Assembly (NCBI GenBank): GCA_903882875.1
Contig: CAIRYQ010000010.1
Coordinates: forward strand, 1 to 64,000
Direction: 5' to 3'
DNA: 64,000 nucleotides
Source of the DNA: an uncultured Spartobacteria bacterium
Lineage (GTDB): Bacteria; Verrucomicrobiota; Verrucomicrobiia; Chthoniobacterales; Chthoniobacteraceae
Shown: positions 60,311 to 64,000 of the stretch, in pieces
How positions within the stretch are numbered: the first letter of the stretch is position 1
Layout: each line of letters opens with the position of its first letter
Made by a program: the position numbers and the translations under genes
Notes under the pieces: model-generated
What the model was told of the DNA's origin: nothing
Database searches by the model: none
The model's input: only the letters and a program-made list of their open reading frames with translations

Positions 60311-60991
60311 CTAAAACAGCTCCGGGCCGTCGTCCGGAGCGGGGCTCTTTGACGGACGGGTGATCATGAGCTTAGGCGTAGGCGGGATTTCTTCGTAGAG
60401 CAATGCGTCGGCGGGGAGGCCGCGGCAGAGGTGCATGAGGTGGTCGTCAGCCAGCGGCTCATCGCCGAGCCAGGCGAGGGCGTCGGCAGGGTCGAGCACG
60501 ACGGGCATGCGATCATGGAATTGCGCGGCCGTGGTGTTTGGTTCGGTCGTGACCATGGCGAAGCCGGTGGAACCGGAGCCGTCGGGATCCGCGTCCCACA
60601 GGCCCGCGACGAAGAACCATGTGTGCTCTTTGACGGTAAAGAGGACTTCGCCCTTTGCGCCGACAGGGCCGAGGCCAGGCTCGTAATAGCCGGTGGTGGG
60701 GATGAGGCAGCGGCGCTTCGCGGCGGATTGTTTCCATGTGGGCTTGGTGAGCAGGCCATCGCGACGGGCGTTGGTGATGAACTGCGGTTTCTCTCTGGCG
60801 TAGAAGGGCCACACGCCCCATCGCATTTCAACGAGGACAGGTCCGCTGTCTTCACGCCGGATGATACGCGCCTTGCGCTTGGGGTAGATGTGCCCCTGCA
60901 AGGTGGGATTGCCGGGGATGTAGAGGCCGGGCACGGACACCCGGACGGCTTCTTCCCACAGTTCCATCTGGTCGCGGTAGTGGTTGCACAT
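60311..60991 (-). CDS. yedK: SOS response-associated protein, SRAP/YedK/HMCES family
   Basis: 226 residues. The start at 60991 is fixed by the family rule that the mature protein begins with Cys2: it reads MCNHYRDQ. Other catalytic or binding residues are present: Asn74 in NARRD, Glu104 in RCLIPTTGYYEP, His159 in FHDRMP. SRAP proteins crosslink through Cys2 to abasic sites in single-stranded DNA and protect them. The C-terminus ends DDGPELF, which loosely resembles a beta-clamp-binding tail. The gene starts 4 bases after the upstream gene on the same strand, and both lie divergent from lexA. Confidence 0.93.
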   Translation of the reverse strand: MCNHYRDQMELWEEAVRVSVPGLYIPGNPTLQGHIYPKRKARIIRREDSGPVLVEMRWGVWPFYAREKPQFITNARRDGLLTKPTWKQSAAKRRCLIPTTGYYEPGLGPVGAKGEVLFTVKEHTWFFVAGLWDADPDGSGSTGFAMVTTEPNTTAAQFHDRMPVVLDPADALAWLGDEPLADDHLMHLCRGLPADALLYEEIPPTPKLMITRPSKSPAPDDGPELF

Positions 60992-60995
60992 GGCG

Positions 60996-61601
60996 TCAGG
61001 CAGCGCCCGCGGGGTGCAGGCCGGGGAAACGATACACGGTGAGCTGCATCGTTGCGCCGTCGAGCACTTCTTCGGGCATGCCGGAATCAATGGCGCGCTT
61101 CAGCGCAAGGCGGAAGGAGCCGGCAGTCTCTCCGGCAGCGCCGCCCTCGACTTCGACGACACCCGTGAAGTGGCCGCGCAGGTGTCGGGGAAAGGCGGGC
61201 GCGAAAGTGAAGACGACGGGTTTTGGGAAATACAGGTCGAGAGGTGGGGACATGCGGAGATTCACGGCCTCCTCGAAGCGGAACTGAAAGAGGGCTTGGA
61301 ACGGGCCGGTCTGGCTGAACTGATCGAGCGCCTCGGGACTGGGCGCTTCTTCGGCGGCGGCGTCCACCTCGTAAATGAAATCGCAGCAAGCCATGAGCAC
61401 TTGGTCGGCGAATTCCTCGAGGGACTCGTGCTCGTCGGCATCGAAGTCTGCGCTGACCAGGACGCCGAGGCGTTTCTCATCGGGGCCAGCGAATGGATCC
61501 GGGATGGAGAGGGTGACCTTGTCGCGCGGCAATGGATCGGGGACGTACGGGAGCATTTCTGCGACTGTCATGCCGACGACGATCTCTGCGAACTGTTGCA
61601 T
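60996..61601 (-). CDS. Unknown 201-residue protein co-operonic with SRAP
   Basis: 201 residues from ATG 61601. Not recognised. The N-terminal half is acidic (VSADFDADEHESLEEFADQ) with a CC pair at residues ~71-72. The middle is Phe/Pro-rich (QFSQTGPFQALFQFRFEEA, DLYFPKPVVFTFAPAFP). No signal peptide, membrane helix or known DNA-binding motif. The stop is 4 bases from the SRAP start, and the operon is divergent from lexA across a 155-bp gap holding a LexA-type palindrome. A role in the DNA-damage response is inferred from position only. The opposite strand is also open over this interval, but its product lacks any supporting context. Confidence 0.7.
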   Translation of the reverse strand: MQQFAEIVVGMTVAEMLPYVPDPLPRDKVTLSIPDPFAGPDEKRLGVLVSADFDADEHESLEEFADQVLMACCDFIYEVDAAAEEAPSPEALDQFSQTGPFQALFQFRFEEAVNLRMSPPLDLYFPKPVVFTFAPAFPRHLRGHFTGVVEVEGGAAGETAGSFRLALKRAIDSGMPEEVLDGATMQLTVYRFPGLHPAGAA

Positions 61602-61723
61602 GGGTGACTCCTATCGCGACGAACCCGAGCTCGCAAGCGGGCACGTCGCGAGATGGAATTGCTGCCACGCGGATGCGACATGAAGGCATCTGGGAAACTT
61701 GAGTTGACGTGAGGTGACGCGGC

Positions 61724-61747
61724 GATACCGTTCATTTGAACGGTATC
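61724..61747. promoter_or_regulatory. LexA operator (24-bp palindrome)
   Basis: Two 11-base arms, GATACCGTTCA and TGAACGGTATC, separated by TT: a perfect palindrome whose core CGTTC-ATTT-GAACG fits the Verrucomicrobia LexA motif TGTTC-N4-GAACA, with the outer T/A replaced by C/G. It ends 9 bases before the lexA ATG, so binding would block lexA expression (autoregulation), and it lies 123 bases from the divergent operon start. A TTGACG (61704-61709) upstream could be a -35 element. Confidence 0.85.
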
Positions 61748-61756
61748 CCGCGCACC

Positions 61757-62365
61757 ATGCTTACAGATCGACAACGAGAGATTTTGGACTTCATCCGCGA
61801 GGCACGCCGGTCACGCGGAGTCACGCCAACGAGCCGGGAGATTCAGCAACACCTCGGCCTCGCCAGCCAGTCCACGGTGATCGACCATCTGCGTGCTCTT
61901 GAAAACAAGGGTGCGCTGAGACGTGAGCCCCACAAGGCACGTGGATTGGTGCCCACCGACGAATACCGCGCTCAGCGGATGATCGAGATCCCAATTTACG
62001 GCACCATCCCCGCCGGGCTGCCCGCCGATGAGAGCCAGCAAGCCGATGGCTGCGTTTCGGTGGACGTGGAGACGCTGCGGCTTCCCAAAGGGGCCCGTGT
62101 CTTCGCCCTCAAGGTCCGTGGCGATTCGATGAATGGTGCCGGCATTCTGCCGGGTGACATTGTGGTGCTGGAATTCAAGGAGGCGAAGTCCGGTGACATC
62201 GTTGCCGCTCTCATTGATGGCGAGACGACGCTGAAGCGCTACGTGGTGCAGCGCGGCAAGCCGTTCCTCAAGGCGGAGAATCCGCGCTACACAAATCTCA
62301 TCCCGGCACAGGAACTCGTCATCCAAGGCGTGCAGATCGCGCTGTTGCGGGTGCTCAAACGGTAA
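61757..62365 (+). CDS. lexA: LexA repressor (SOS regulator, S24 self-cleaving)
   Basis: 202 residues, the usual LexA length. The ATG at 61757 gives the conserved start MLTDRQREILDFI; a TTG at 61736 lies inside the operator and is rejected. Winged HTH at residues 1-65 (PTSREIQQHLGLASQSTVIDH). Cleavage site Ala86-Gly87 in YGTIPAGLP, catalytic Ser124 in RGDSMNGAGI and Lys160 in ETTLKRY. RecA-stimulated self-cleavage should release the operator directly upstream. It is followed by a translesion-polymerase fusion gene 110 bases downstream on the same strand. Confidence 0.97.
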   Translation: MLTDRQREILDFIREARRSRGVTPTSREIQQHLGLASQSTVIDHLRALENKGALRREPHKARGLVPTDEYRAQRMIEIPIYGTIPAGLPADESQQADGCVSVDVETLRLPKGARVFALKVRGDSMNGAGILPGDIVVLEFKEAKSGDIVAALIDGETTLKRYVVQRGKPFLKAENPRYTNLIPAQELVIQGVQIALLRVLKR

Positions 62366-62392: not shown

Positions 62393-62475
62393 CTCCGGCC
62401 CGCAATCGGCTGGTGCGGCCCTGCCCGCAACCCGCGGTCGCAGCAGCTCGAACGTCCGCTCCACTACCGACGCAA

Positions 62476-64000
62476 ATGATCGTTCACCTCGACGCCGACG
62501 CATTTTTTGCGTCCGTCGAGCAGGCCGCCGATCCGAAGCTGAGAGGCAAGCCGGTGGCGGTCGGCGGCGACAGACGCGGCATCATCGCCTCGGCGAGCTA
62601 CGAGGCGCGGAAGCTCGGCATCTACACGCCGATGCCCACGGCACGGGCGCGGAAGCTGTGCCCGCGGCTCATCGTGCTGCCGGGTGATTTCGAGAAATAC
62701 GAACAGTTCTCGAAGTTCATGTTTTCCTACGCCTACGACTTCACACCCGAGGTGGAGATCGCATCGATCGACGAGGGCTATTTCGATTTGCGCGGCCATC
62801 ACAAACACCCGCCGCGTGAGGTCGCGGAAATCATCCGGCGGGCGATCCGGCAGAGCCTGAAGATCACCGTGTCCGAGGGCATCGCCTCGAACAAACTGAT
62901 CTCGCAGGTCGCATCGAAGCTCCGCAAGCCGGCGTGCTTTCTGGAAGTTCCGGATGGTGAGGAACGAAGCTTTCTCGCTCCGCTGCCGAACAAGTGGCTG
63001 CCCGGCGTCGGGCCGAAACTCGCGGGCACGCTGAATACGGCCGGCCTCGCCATCATCGAGCAAATCGCAGGCATGCCCGCCGACATGCTGGCGCTGCTCG
63101 TGGGAAGCTACGCACCGCAGCTCCGGGCATTTGCAAACGGTGTGGACGAGCGCCCCGTGGTGCGTGAGCCATCGGATGCCAAGAGCTACGGTGAGCAGGA
63201 CACCTTCGCCGAGGACGTGACGGACGAGGCATTCATCTTCGCCAAGCTCCGCAGCATCGCGGACCGGCTTGCGGCAAAGGTGCGTGAGGACGGGAAGAGC
63301 TTTCGCACGGTGACGCTCAAGCTCCGGTACAACGACATGCAGGACGTCACCCGGAGCGTGAGTCTTGGGGAGCCCGCGGATCTCGAACAGGACATCTACC
63401 CGTTGCTGCCGGCGCTTGTTCGCAAGGCATGGGATCGCCGCGTGAGCATCCGCATGGTGTCGCTGCGACTGTCGGGCATCTACGGCGGCATCTTCCGCAG
63501 CGAGCTGGCGCTCGATGAGCAGAGCCGCAAGCGCGAGAACGAGCAGCGGCTCGCGAAGGTGATCGACGGCCTGCGCGGCGACCACTCGATCATGCGCGGC
63601 CATGATCTGTGGCTCAAACAGCGGGAGGGAAAGCCACGCGCCGACACTGAGCGAACGCACACGCGAAAGCCGGTCACACCGACGAAGTCCCGCGTCCGCG
63701 ATTTCGTTCCGCTCAACGTCAAAAGCCATTACGACTTCCTCGATTCGGCGCTCTCGATTCCGGCGATCATCGAGGCAGCGCAAGAGACGGGAGCGAAGGC
63801 GCTCGCCATCACCGATCCCAATTTGCACGGGGCGGTCGAATTCTTCACGGCGGCACGCGACGCCGGGATCAAACCCATCATCGGCGCGGAGGTCACCAGT
63901 GATGGCCATCCGCTGAATCTCTACGTTGAAAATGCACAGGGCTACGCGAACCTCTGCCGACTTCTGACTTCGCCAGCCATTACGGCCGCGTTGTTGCAAA
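62476..64000 (+). CDS. Y-family DNA polymerase (DinB-like) fused to DnaE-type PHP domain; runs off the window
   Basis: At least 508 residues, open at the window end. Residues 1 to about 355 are a Y-family polymerase: MIVHLDADAFFASVEQ at the start (catalytic Asp6), YEARKLGIYTPMP, and IASIDEGYFDL with Asp99/Glu100, so the polymerase residues are intact, unlike ImuB. Helix-hairpin-helix (LPNKWLPGVGPKLAG) and little-finger regions follow. After a basic linker (~380-409), residues 410-508 match the PHP domain that begins C-family polymerases (FVPLNVKSHYDFLDSALS, AITDPNLHGAVEFF, IKPIIGAEV). The metal-binding His-x-His is replaced by Pro-x-Asn, so the PHP is probably inactive. The remainder of a DnaE polymerase is expected beyond the window. 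Confidence 0.9.
   Translation, partial: MIVHLDADAFFASVEQAADPKLRGKPVAVGGDRRGIIASASYEARKLGIYTPMPTARARKLCPRLIVLPGDFEKYEQFSKFMFSYAYDFTPEVEIASIDEGYFDLRGHHKHPPREVAEIIRRAIRQSLKITVSEGIASNKLISQVASKLRKPACFLEVPDGEERSFLAPLPNKWLPGVGPKLAGTLNTAGLAIIEQIAGMPADMLALLVGSYAPQLRAFANGVDERPVVREPSDAKSYGEQDTFAEDVTDEAFIFAKLRSIADRLAAKVREDGKSFRTVTLKLRYNDMQDVTRSVSLGEPADLEQDIYPLLPALVRKAWDRRVSIRMVSLRLSGIYGGIFRSELALDEQSRKRENEQRLAKVIDGLRGDHSIMRGHDLWLKQREGKPRADTERTHTRKPVTPTKSRVRDFVPLNVKSHYDFLDSALSIPAIIEAAQETGAKALAITDPNLHGAVEFFTAARDAGIKPIIGAEVTSDGHPLNLYVENAQGYANLCRLLTSPAITAALLQ

Follow-up and report, generated by a model that had tools for sequence, protein, structure and literature searches.

Translesion synthesis is usually pictured as an exchange of polymerases on the clamp, and the rules that set inserter and extender apart are unclear. 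The closest described systems combine the relevant proteins in different ways. In the Imu mutasome (ImuA-ImuB-DnaE2), the Y-family homologue is dead and DnaE2 is the sole catalytic member (PMC3919608, PMC12926913). Bacteroidetes encode an active PolY and a DnaE2(B) as separate neighboring genes (PMC6511836, PMC12926913), e.g., in an operon of Cellulophaga algicola (PMC6511836), and keep this module under non-canonical LexA-like repressors (PMC8565304); a DnaE2B-PolY-RecA mutasome is a published prediction (PMC12926913). In Geobacter, a lexA-imuB-C-polY operon places lexA upstream of an active PolY (PMC6511836).

The window (i.e., the whole 64,000-nucleotide stretch analyzed here) comprises bases 1-64000 of contig C10, which ends at 81,557 and belongs to a draft genome of 5.78 Mb in 129 contigs. 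An open frame running off the end of the window had been read as a live Y-family polymerase tethered to what should be a whole C-family polymerase. When the contig was extended beyond the window, the frame proved stop-free from its ATG at 62476 (with an alternative start, GTG, at 62413) to a stop ending at 66573, confirming a single unbroken frame of 1365 aa; neither a stop nor a missing C-family domain, which would have left only a PHP fragment attached, was encountered past 64000. A domain search of the extended protein returned all four domains expected by the original prediction in this one ORF, and Pfam orders the whole as IMS, IMS_C, PHP, DNA_pol3_alpha (residues 614-872), finger (876-1038), HHH_6 (1112-1195) and an OB domain (1278-1344) that scores slightly below the cut-off, with the protein ending soon after (see the table for the coordinates). 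The C-family part spans ~960 aa, versus 1222 aa for the same genome's own DnaE1 (on contig C11). Neither half reaches the NCBIfam equivalog cut-offs of its familiar counterpart, be it Pol IV (DinB; best 263.4 vs 389, nearest miss PRK02406 at 252.2 vs 256) or replicative DnaE1 (621.9 vs 1002, with the PHP HxH lost). No enzyme of this layout was found in the papers searched, and the PolY-DnaE2 fusion is thus apparently undescribed so far.

Table. Coordinates of the fusion gene, its parts and its upstream operon elements (window positions unless marked as contig positions)
Feature	Position	Strand	Basis or remark
Presumed LexA operator: palindrome GATACCGTTCATTTGAACGGTATC over the promoter of lexA and the fusion	61724..61747	.	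11-bp arms
lexA, 202 aa: LexA DNA-binding domain and S24 peptidase (Ser, Lys, Ala-Gly site)	61757..62365	+	TIGR00498, Pfam, alignment
polY-dnaE2 fusion gene, 5' part	62476..64000	+	Stays in frame up to contig position 66573; 1365 aa overall
Y-family catalytic domain (IMS, residues 5-148; D6, D99, E100)	62488..62919	+	Pfam; residue invariance
Little finger (IMS_C, residues 236-335)	63181..63480	+	Pfam
Degenerate clamp-motif position SELALD, residues 342-347	63499..63516	+	Bacteroidetes PolY2 has QIDLF there
RecA-NT-like helix motif RLAKVIDGLRGDHSIMRGHDL, residues 358-378	63547..63609	+	Family alignment; predicted helices 348-369 and 375-383
Flexible tether between the polymerases, residues 388-407	63637..63696	+	pLDDT <50; inside the fastest-evolving segment
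PHP domain start, degenerate metal ligands (residues 413-520, past the window end)	63712..64000	+	Pfam, alignment
C-family core	contig 64315-65091	+	Downstream of the window

The catalytic residues of both halves were compared across 85 fusion proteins (73 distinct). As the original prediction had it for this one protein, the Y-family acidic residues are in place: D99 and E100 are invariant throughout, and D6 is invariant in all 81 proteins that reach that position. The C-family aspartates D718, D720 and D869 are likewise invariant in the aligned set. The metal ligands of the PHP domain had been described as degenerate, correctly so, with N-V-K in place of the HxH site in the window's fusion; these ligands vary freely among fusions, and PHP nuclease proofreading has therefore probably been lost. 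Between the two copies of the gene carried by this genome (A and B), dN/dS is 0.03 for the Y half, 0.105 for the C half and 0.16 for the linker; both active sites are intact and under purifying selection. A structural model of residues 1-1195 (mean pLDDT 84.4, pTM 0.61) renders both polymerase cores confidently and predicts disorder at residues 338-346 and 388-407, portraying two firm bodies joined by a loose tether, whose mutual docking is left undefined at this pTM. In a Foldseek search, the two halves of the model find their best PDB matches in Pol III alpha and Pol IV, respectively one polymerase per half, in agreement with the sequence search. Sequence, conservation, selection and the predicted model all support a live Y-family polymerase tethered to a whole C-family polymerase core.

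In the Bacteroidetes PolY, the little finger is followed by QIDLF and then by a segment of the kind termed RecA-NT in published work. By alignment, the second of these parts is retained in the fusions, where it approximates RLAxVVDxLRxxxGxxxILRGHD, and the Q of the first is gone from most of them. The RecA-NT-like segment gives a weak profile match to the PolY of Adhaeribacter (E 0.0046); a profile search of the motif against this genome's own RecA yielded no match above noise, so a role in RecA binding is suggested by the position of the motif and by the published relatives. Between the HhH and OB domains, in the position that QVSLF occupies in DnaE1, a loose pattern picks out a QGxLF-like clamp-type motif in 57 of the 85 fusions; this motif is lost in family f6. 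The fusion may bind the clamp.

These features bear on whether both active sites matter in the cell. Conceivably, the Y half serves mainly as a targeting or RecA-binding platform, as ImuB does, and leaves synthesis to DnaE2, or the reverse holds. The precedent of the Imu mutasome, with its dead Y homologue and DnaE2 as the only catalyst (PMC3919608, PMC12926913), speaks for such a division, as does the clamp motif, degraded in the Y half yet, in many members, still present as QGxLF in the DnaE half. However, a mere platform sits poorly with Y-family catalytic residues that are invariant in every fusion covering them, in the very half that is most constrained, and with C-family aspartates that are equally invariant; we thus regard a single working site as rather unlikely and favor two active polymerases.

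The prediction had called for a survey of Verrucomicrobiota, and the fusion proved recurrent there. A GTDB scan using one genome per species (84,980 species) confirmed 232 relatives, of which the best 80 were examined; an ORF check showed every one of the 80 to be a fusion. Verrucomicrobiota titles belong to 78 of them, and the other two sit on a MAG whose title, Klebsiella pneumoniae, is most likely wrong. Among the 80 are loci of the isolate Brevifollis gellanilyticus and of the single-cell genome SCGC AAA164-E04. Within a sample of the class, the fusion is present in about 40 of 384 genomes, counted among the matches listed with long frames. A further phylum sample added one unfused relative (44% identity); since the genomes listed there are mostly of the same class, absence of the fusion outside Verrucomicrobiota is no more than likely. 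No fusion was found in viral contigs, the best phage records matching the DnaE part only, and none among the best plasmid matches examined, all of which are separate genes. This recurrence disposes of the concern that the gene is a chimeric assembly or hides an overlooked stop or frameshift. Such a concern is natural for a draft genome in 129 contigs; set against it are a second full copy in the same genome (on contig C111, 91% identical), scores of independent assemblies, isolate and single-cell ones included, in which the frame is equally unbroken, and the low dN/dS, making an artefact vanishingly improbable.

Several members depart from the common form. In three loci (L045 of genome G056, L038 and L039), loops and linker of the fusion genes contain in-frame insertions of a repetitive kind (GIGILPMMGGGH..., GTSGSLVRAVKSG...), as though the reading frame could accommodate an interspersed repeat; an intein was considered for the longer member in G056 and rejected upon inspection, the insert being a repeat-like stretch. 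Brevifollis harbors a second, partial fusion-like DnaE piece (G507:C22, ~60917-62092) that is 73% identical to the window's protein, against 65% for its own full fusion, a difference that suggests horizontal transfer.

In a tree of the C-family half, all fusions together with the split genes of lineage f44 form one clade (support 100), joined next by two unfused Verrucomicrobial genes and then by DnaE2 of Bacteroidetes and Desulfosarcina (support 99); ImuC/DnaE2A and DnaE1 are placed elsewhere. The Y-half tree agrees broadly with this picture, with long branches. The ImuA-ImuB-DnaE2 system, initially taken as the nearest known relative, is thereby displaced: the DnaE half groups with the Bacteroidetes DnaE2, whose partner is an active, separately encoded PolY. 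What the Imu system shares with the fusion is an SOS-type operon linking a Y-family protein with DnaE2; it differs in its dead ImuB with an ImuB-C domain, in the presence of ImuA and in a DnaE2 of the A clade. The canonical Imu components were considered as partners of the fusion and rejected, as they were not found for it: in this genome the ImuA search matched only the RecA gene, below the cut-off, and Pfam detects no ImuB-C domain in the fusion. Among nine genomes tested, ImuB-C occurs in the window's alone, away from the fusion, as a stand-alone (DUF6504) protein whose neighborhood showed no polymerase gene (G000:C50; L211:5220-5711, - strand). Brevifollis has a separate ImuB-ImuC-like pair besides its fusion, so the two systems are not mutually exclusive. 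The Geobacter operon, which also sets lexA upstream of an active PolY, differs from the fusion in using ImuB-C and lacking DnaE2.

The nearest system is instead the predicted DnaE2B-PolY-RecA mutasome of Bacteroidetes. Both combine an active Y-family polymerase with an active DnaE2, their DnaE halves are sister groups (99), the segment after the little finger of the fusion aligns with the RecA-NT-type segment found there in PolY, and the gene order is the same; Bacteroidetes plasmids with a related DnaE2 also carry dinB and dnaE as adjacent separate genes in the order of the fusion halves. The Bacteroidetes version consists of two proteins under LexA-like repressors, with a canonical QIDLF in PolY, whereas the fusion is a single 1365-aa polypeptide under a true LexA, with a degraded PolY clamp motif. 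Given an active, separate PolY in the sister group, the fusion can be viewed as a covalent version of this mutasome.

It could then be asked whether the fusion is merely a joined operon without added mechanism, its enzymes as independent as the Bacteroidetes pair. That dinB and dnaE are adjacent yet separate in Bacteroidetes is compatible with this idea, as are the variable, disordered tether and the f44 lineage, which keeps split genes of 52-57% identity. In f44 the order is an S24-like gene, polY, a gap with an opposite-strand crcB-like frame, and dnaE2, and the data fit a later fission and a sister position to the fusion about equally (AU p 0.58 and 0.46). Genome G092, of the window's own family, encodes lexA-polY (384 aa) without a DnaE half (L050, L214); it also has a second, ImuA-like match, with a divergent Y-family gene and one resembling DnaE2/ImuC in the vicinity. 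As the halves are separate or missing in close relatives (f44, G092, G011), tethering is not essential everywhere. Nonetheless, the fused state is maintained across many families and among paralogues, beyond what a neutral joint would lead one to expect, and we consider a joint without consequence somewhat unlikely, retaining the view that the tether contributes to function.

The fusion lies in an operon behind lexA, whose product scores 151.6 bits against TIGR00498 (cut-off 110.95). The palindrome preceding lexA is perfect over its arms, and none of 2000 shuffles produced an equally good one; its core, ACCGTTCNNNNGAACGGT, has no other occurrence in the genome even when one mismatch is allowed. 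Sister loci have palindromes of their own in the same place, and TGTTC-N4-GAACA, which we take to be the published Verrucomicrobia LexA motif, is present in 25 of 92 upstream regions. A lexA or S24 gene stands immediately upstream in 92 of 122 fusion loci, a count in which some loci were fetched twice from different collections and several of those without the upstream gene end at a contig edge; lexA is not the gene immediately before the fusion in families f6 and f12. This arrangement suggests expression from a LexA-controlled operon and, by extension, SOS induction. Divergent from lexA and the fusion lies an SRAP gene (SOS response-associated peptidase, HMCES/YedK type; 60311-60991, - strand; PF02586, 119.9 bits), separated from lexA by a 201-aa open frame with no Pfam match (60996-61601, - strand). 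Beyond the window, the contig carries Type I-G (I-U) CRISPR genes (C10 ~70141-75000; L004:14142-19001) for Cas3g, a HEAT/PD-DEXK protein and Cas8g/Csx17.

The lexA-fusion unit could alternatively be a mobile mutagenesis cassette, with a private LexA that controls only itself, outside the host SOS network. Several observations lean this way: the two full copies match (84% DNA) over lexA and the fusion only, with unlike flanks; each box, allowing at most one mismatch, occurs only before cassette lexA genes, the palindrome of copy B differing from the window's and being common to copy B and a truncated third lexA; and no clear palindrome precedes recA. The third cassette (G000:C59; L212:3740-5164) is decayed, its LexA reading GASM for GDSM and TALKR for TTLKR, and its polY ending after residue 55, followed by unrelated sequence. 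Yet no transposase or integrase was identified beside the unit, and in genomes G262 and G403 the operon LexA is the only S24 protein found, hence likely the general SOS repressor there. A private, mobile unit thus seems fairly improbable to us, and a LexA that answers to the host SOS response is the reading we keep.

The S24 partner itself varies. The operons of the Brevifollis group and of f39 encode an S24 protein that has no DNA-binding domain but retains Ser, Lys and the Ala-Gly site, all of which are missing from the 105-aa S24-like protein of the split f44 lineage. All seven tested genomes whose partner lacks the DNA-binding domain have another lexA elsewhere. Conversely, if the two additional lexA cassettes in the window's genome are left out of account, a second strong LexA DNA-binding domain is absent from nine genomes with LexA in the operon; the exception is G475, whose operon LexA is joined by two more elsewhere. 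Gene order and domain loss, with the S24 core kept without repressor function, suggest a UmuD-like role. Pol V (UmuD'2-UmuC-RecA) likewise has a Y polymerase beside an S24 protein, and some relatives approach it in that the S24 protein paired with their fusion lacks the DNA-binding domain; Pol V differs in having no C-family polymerase, and in the window the S24 partner is a complete LexA. That even a full operon LexA acts as repressor and then, once cleaved, as a UmuD'-like subunit of the one-chain, two-site enzyme is a conceivable but unlikely extension.

Taken together, these results make it likely that the locus encodes a single-polypeptide translesion polymerase, in which an active DinB-like PolY, a RecA-NT-like segment, a tether and an active DnaE2B-type polymerase follow one another under LexA control. 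In such a scheme, a RecA filament on damaged DNA would trigger LexA cleavage, whereupon the fusion would be made; its Y half would insert opposite the lesion, and the tethered C half, with a proofreading-dead PHP domain and often a QGxLF clamp-type motif, would extend the mispaired end without a second recruitment, the DNA being handed over between the two active sites.

In this conserved natural protein, an active Y-family polymerase is held close to an active C-family one at a fixed 1:1 ratio. Point mutations in a single purified protein may therefore tell insertion from extension, and the fusion offers a natural way to study how damaged DNA passes between polymerases. It also indicates that a DnaE2 system can function without ImuA and ImuB, and the series of S24 partners, from full LexA to forms without the DNA-binding domain, suggests a testable path from LexA to UmuD.
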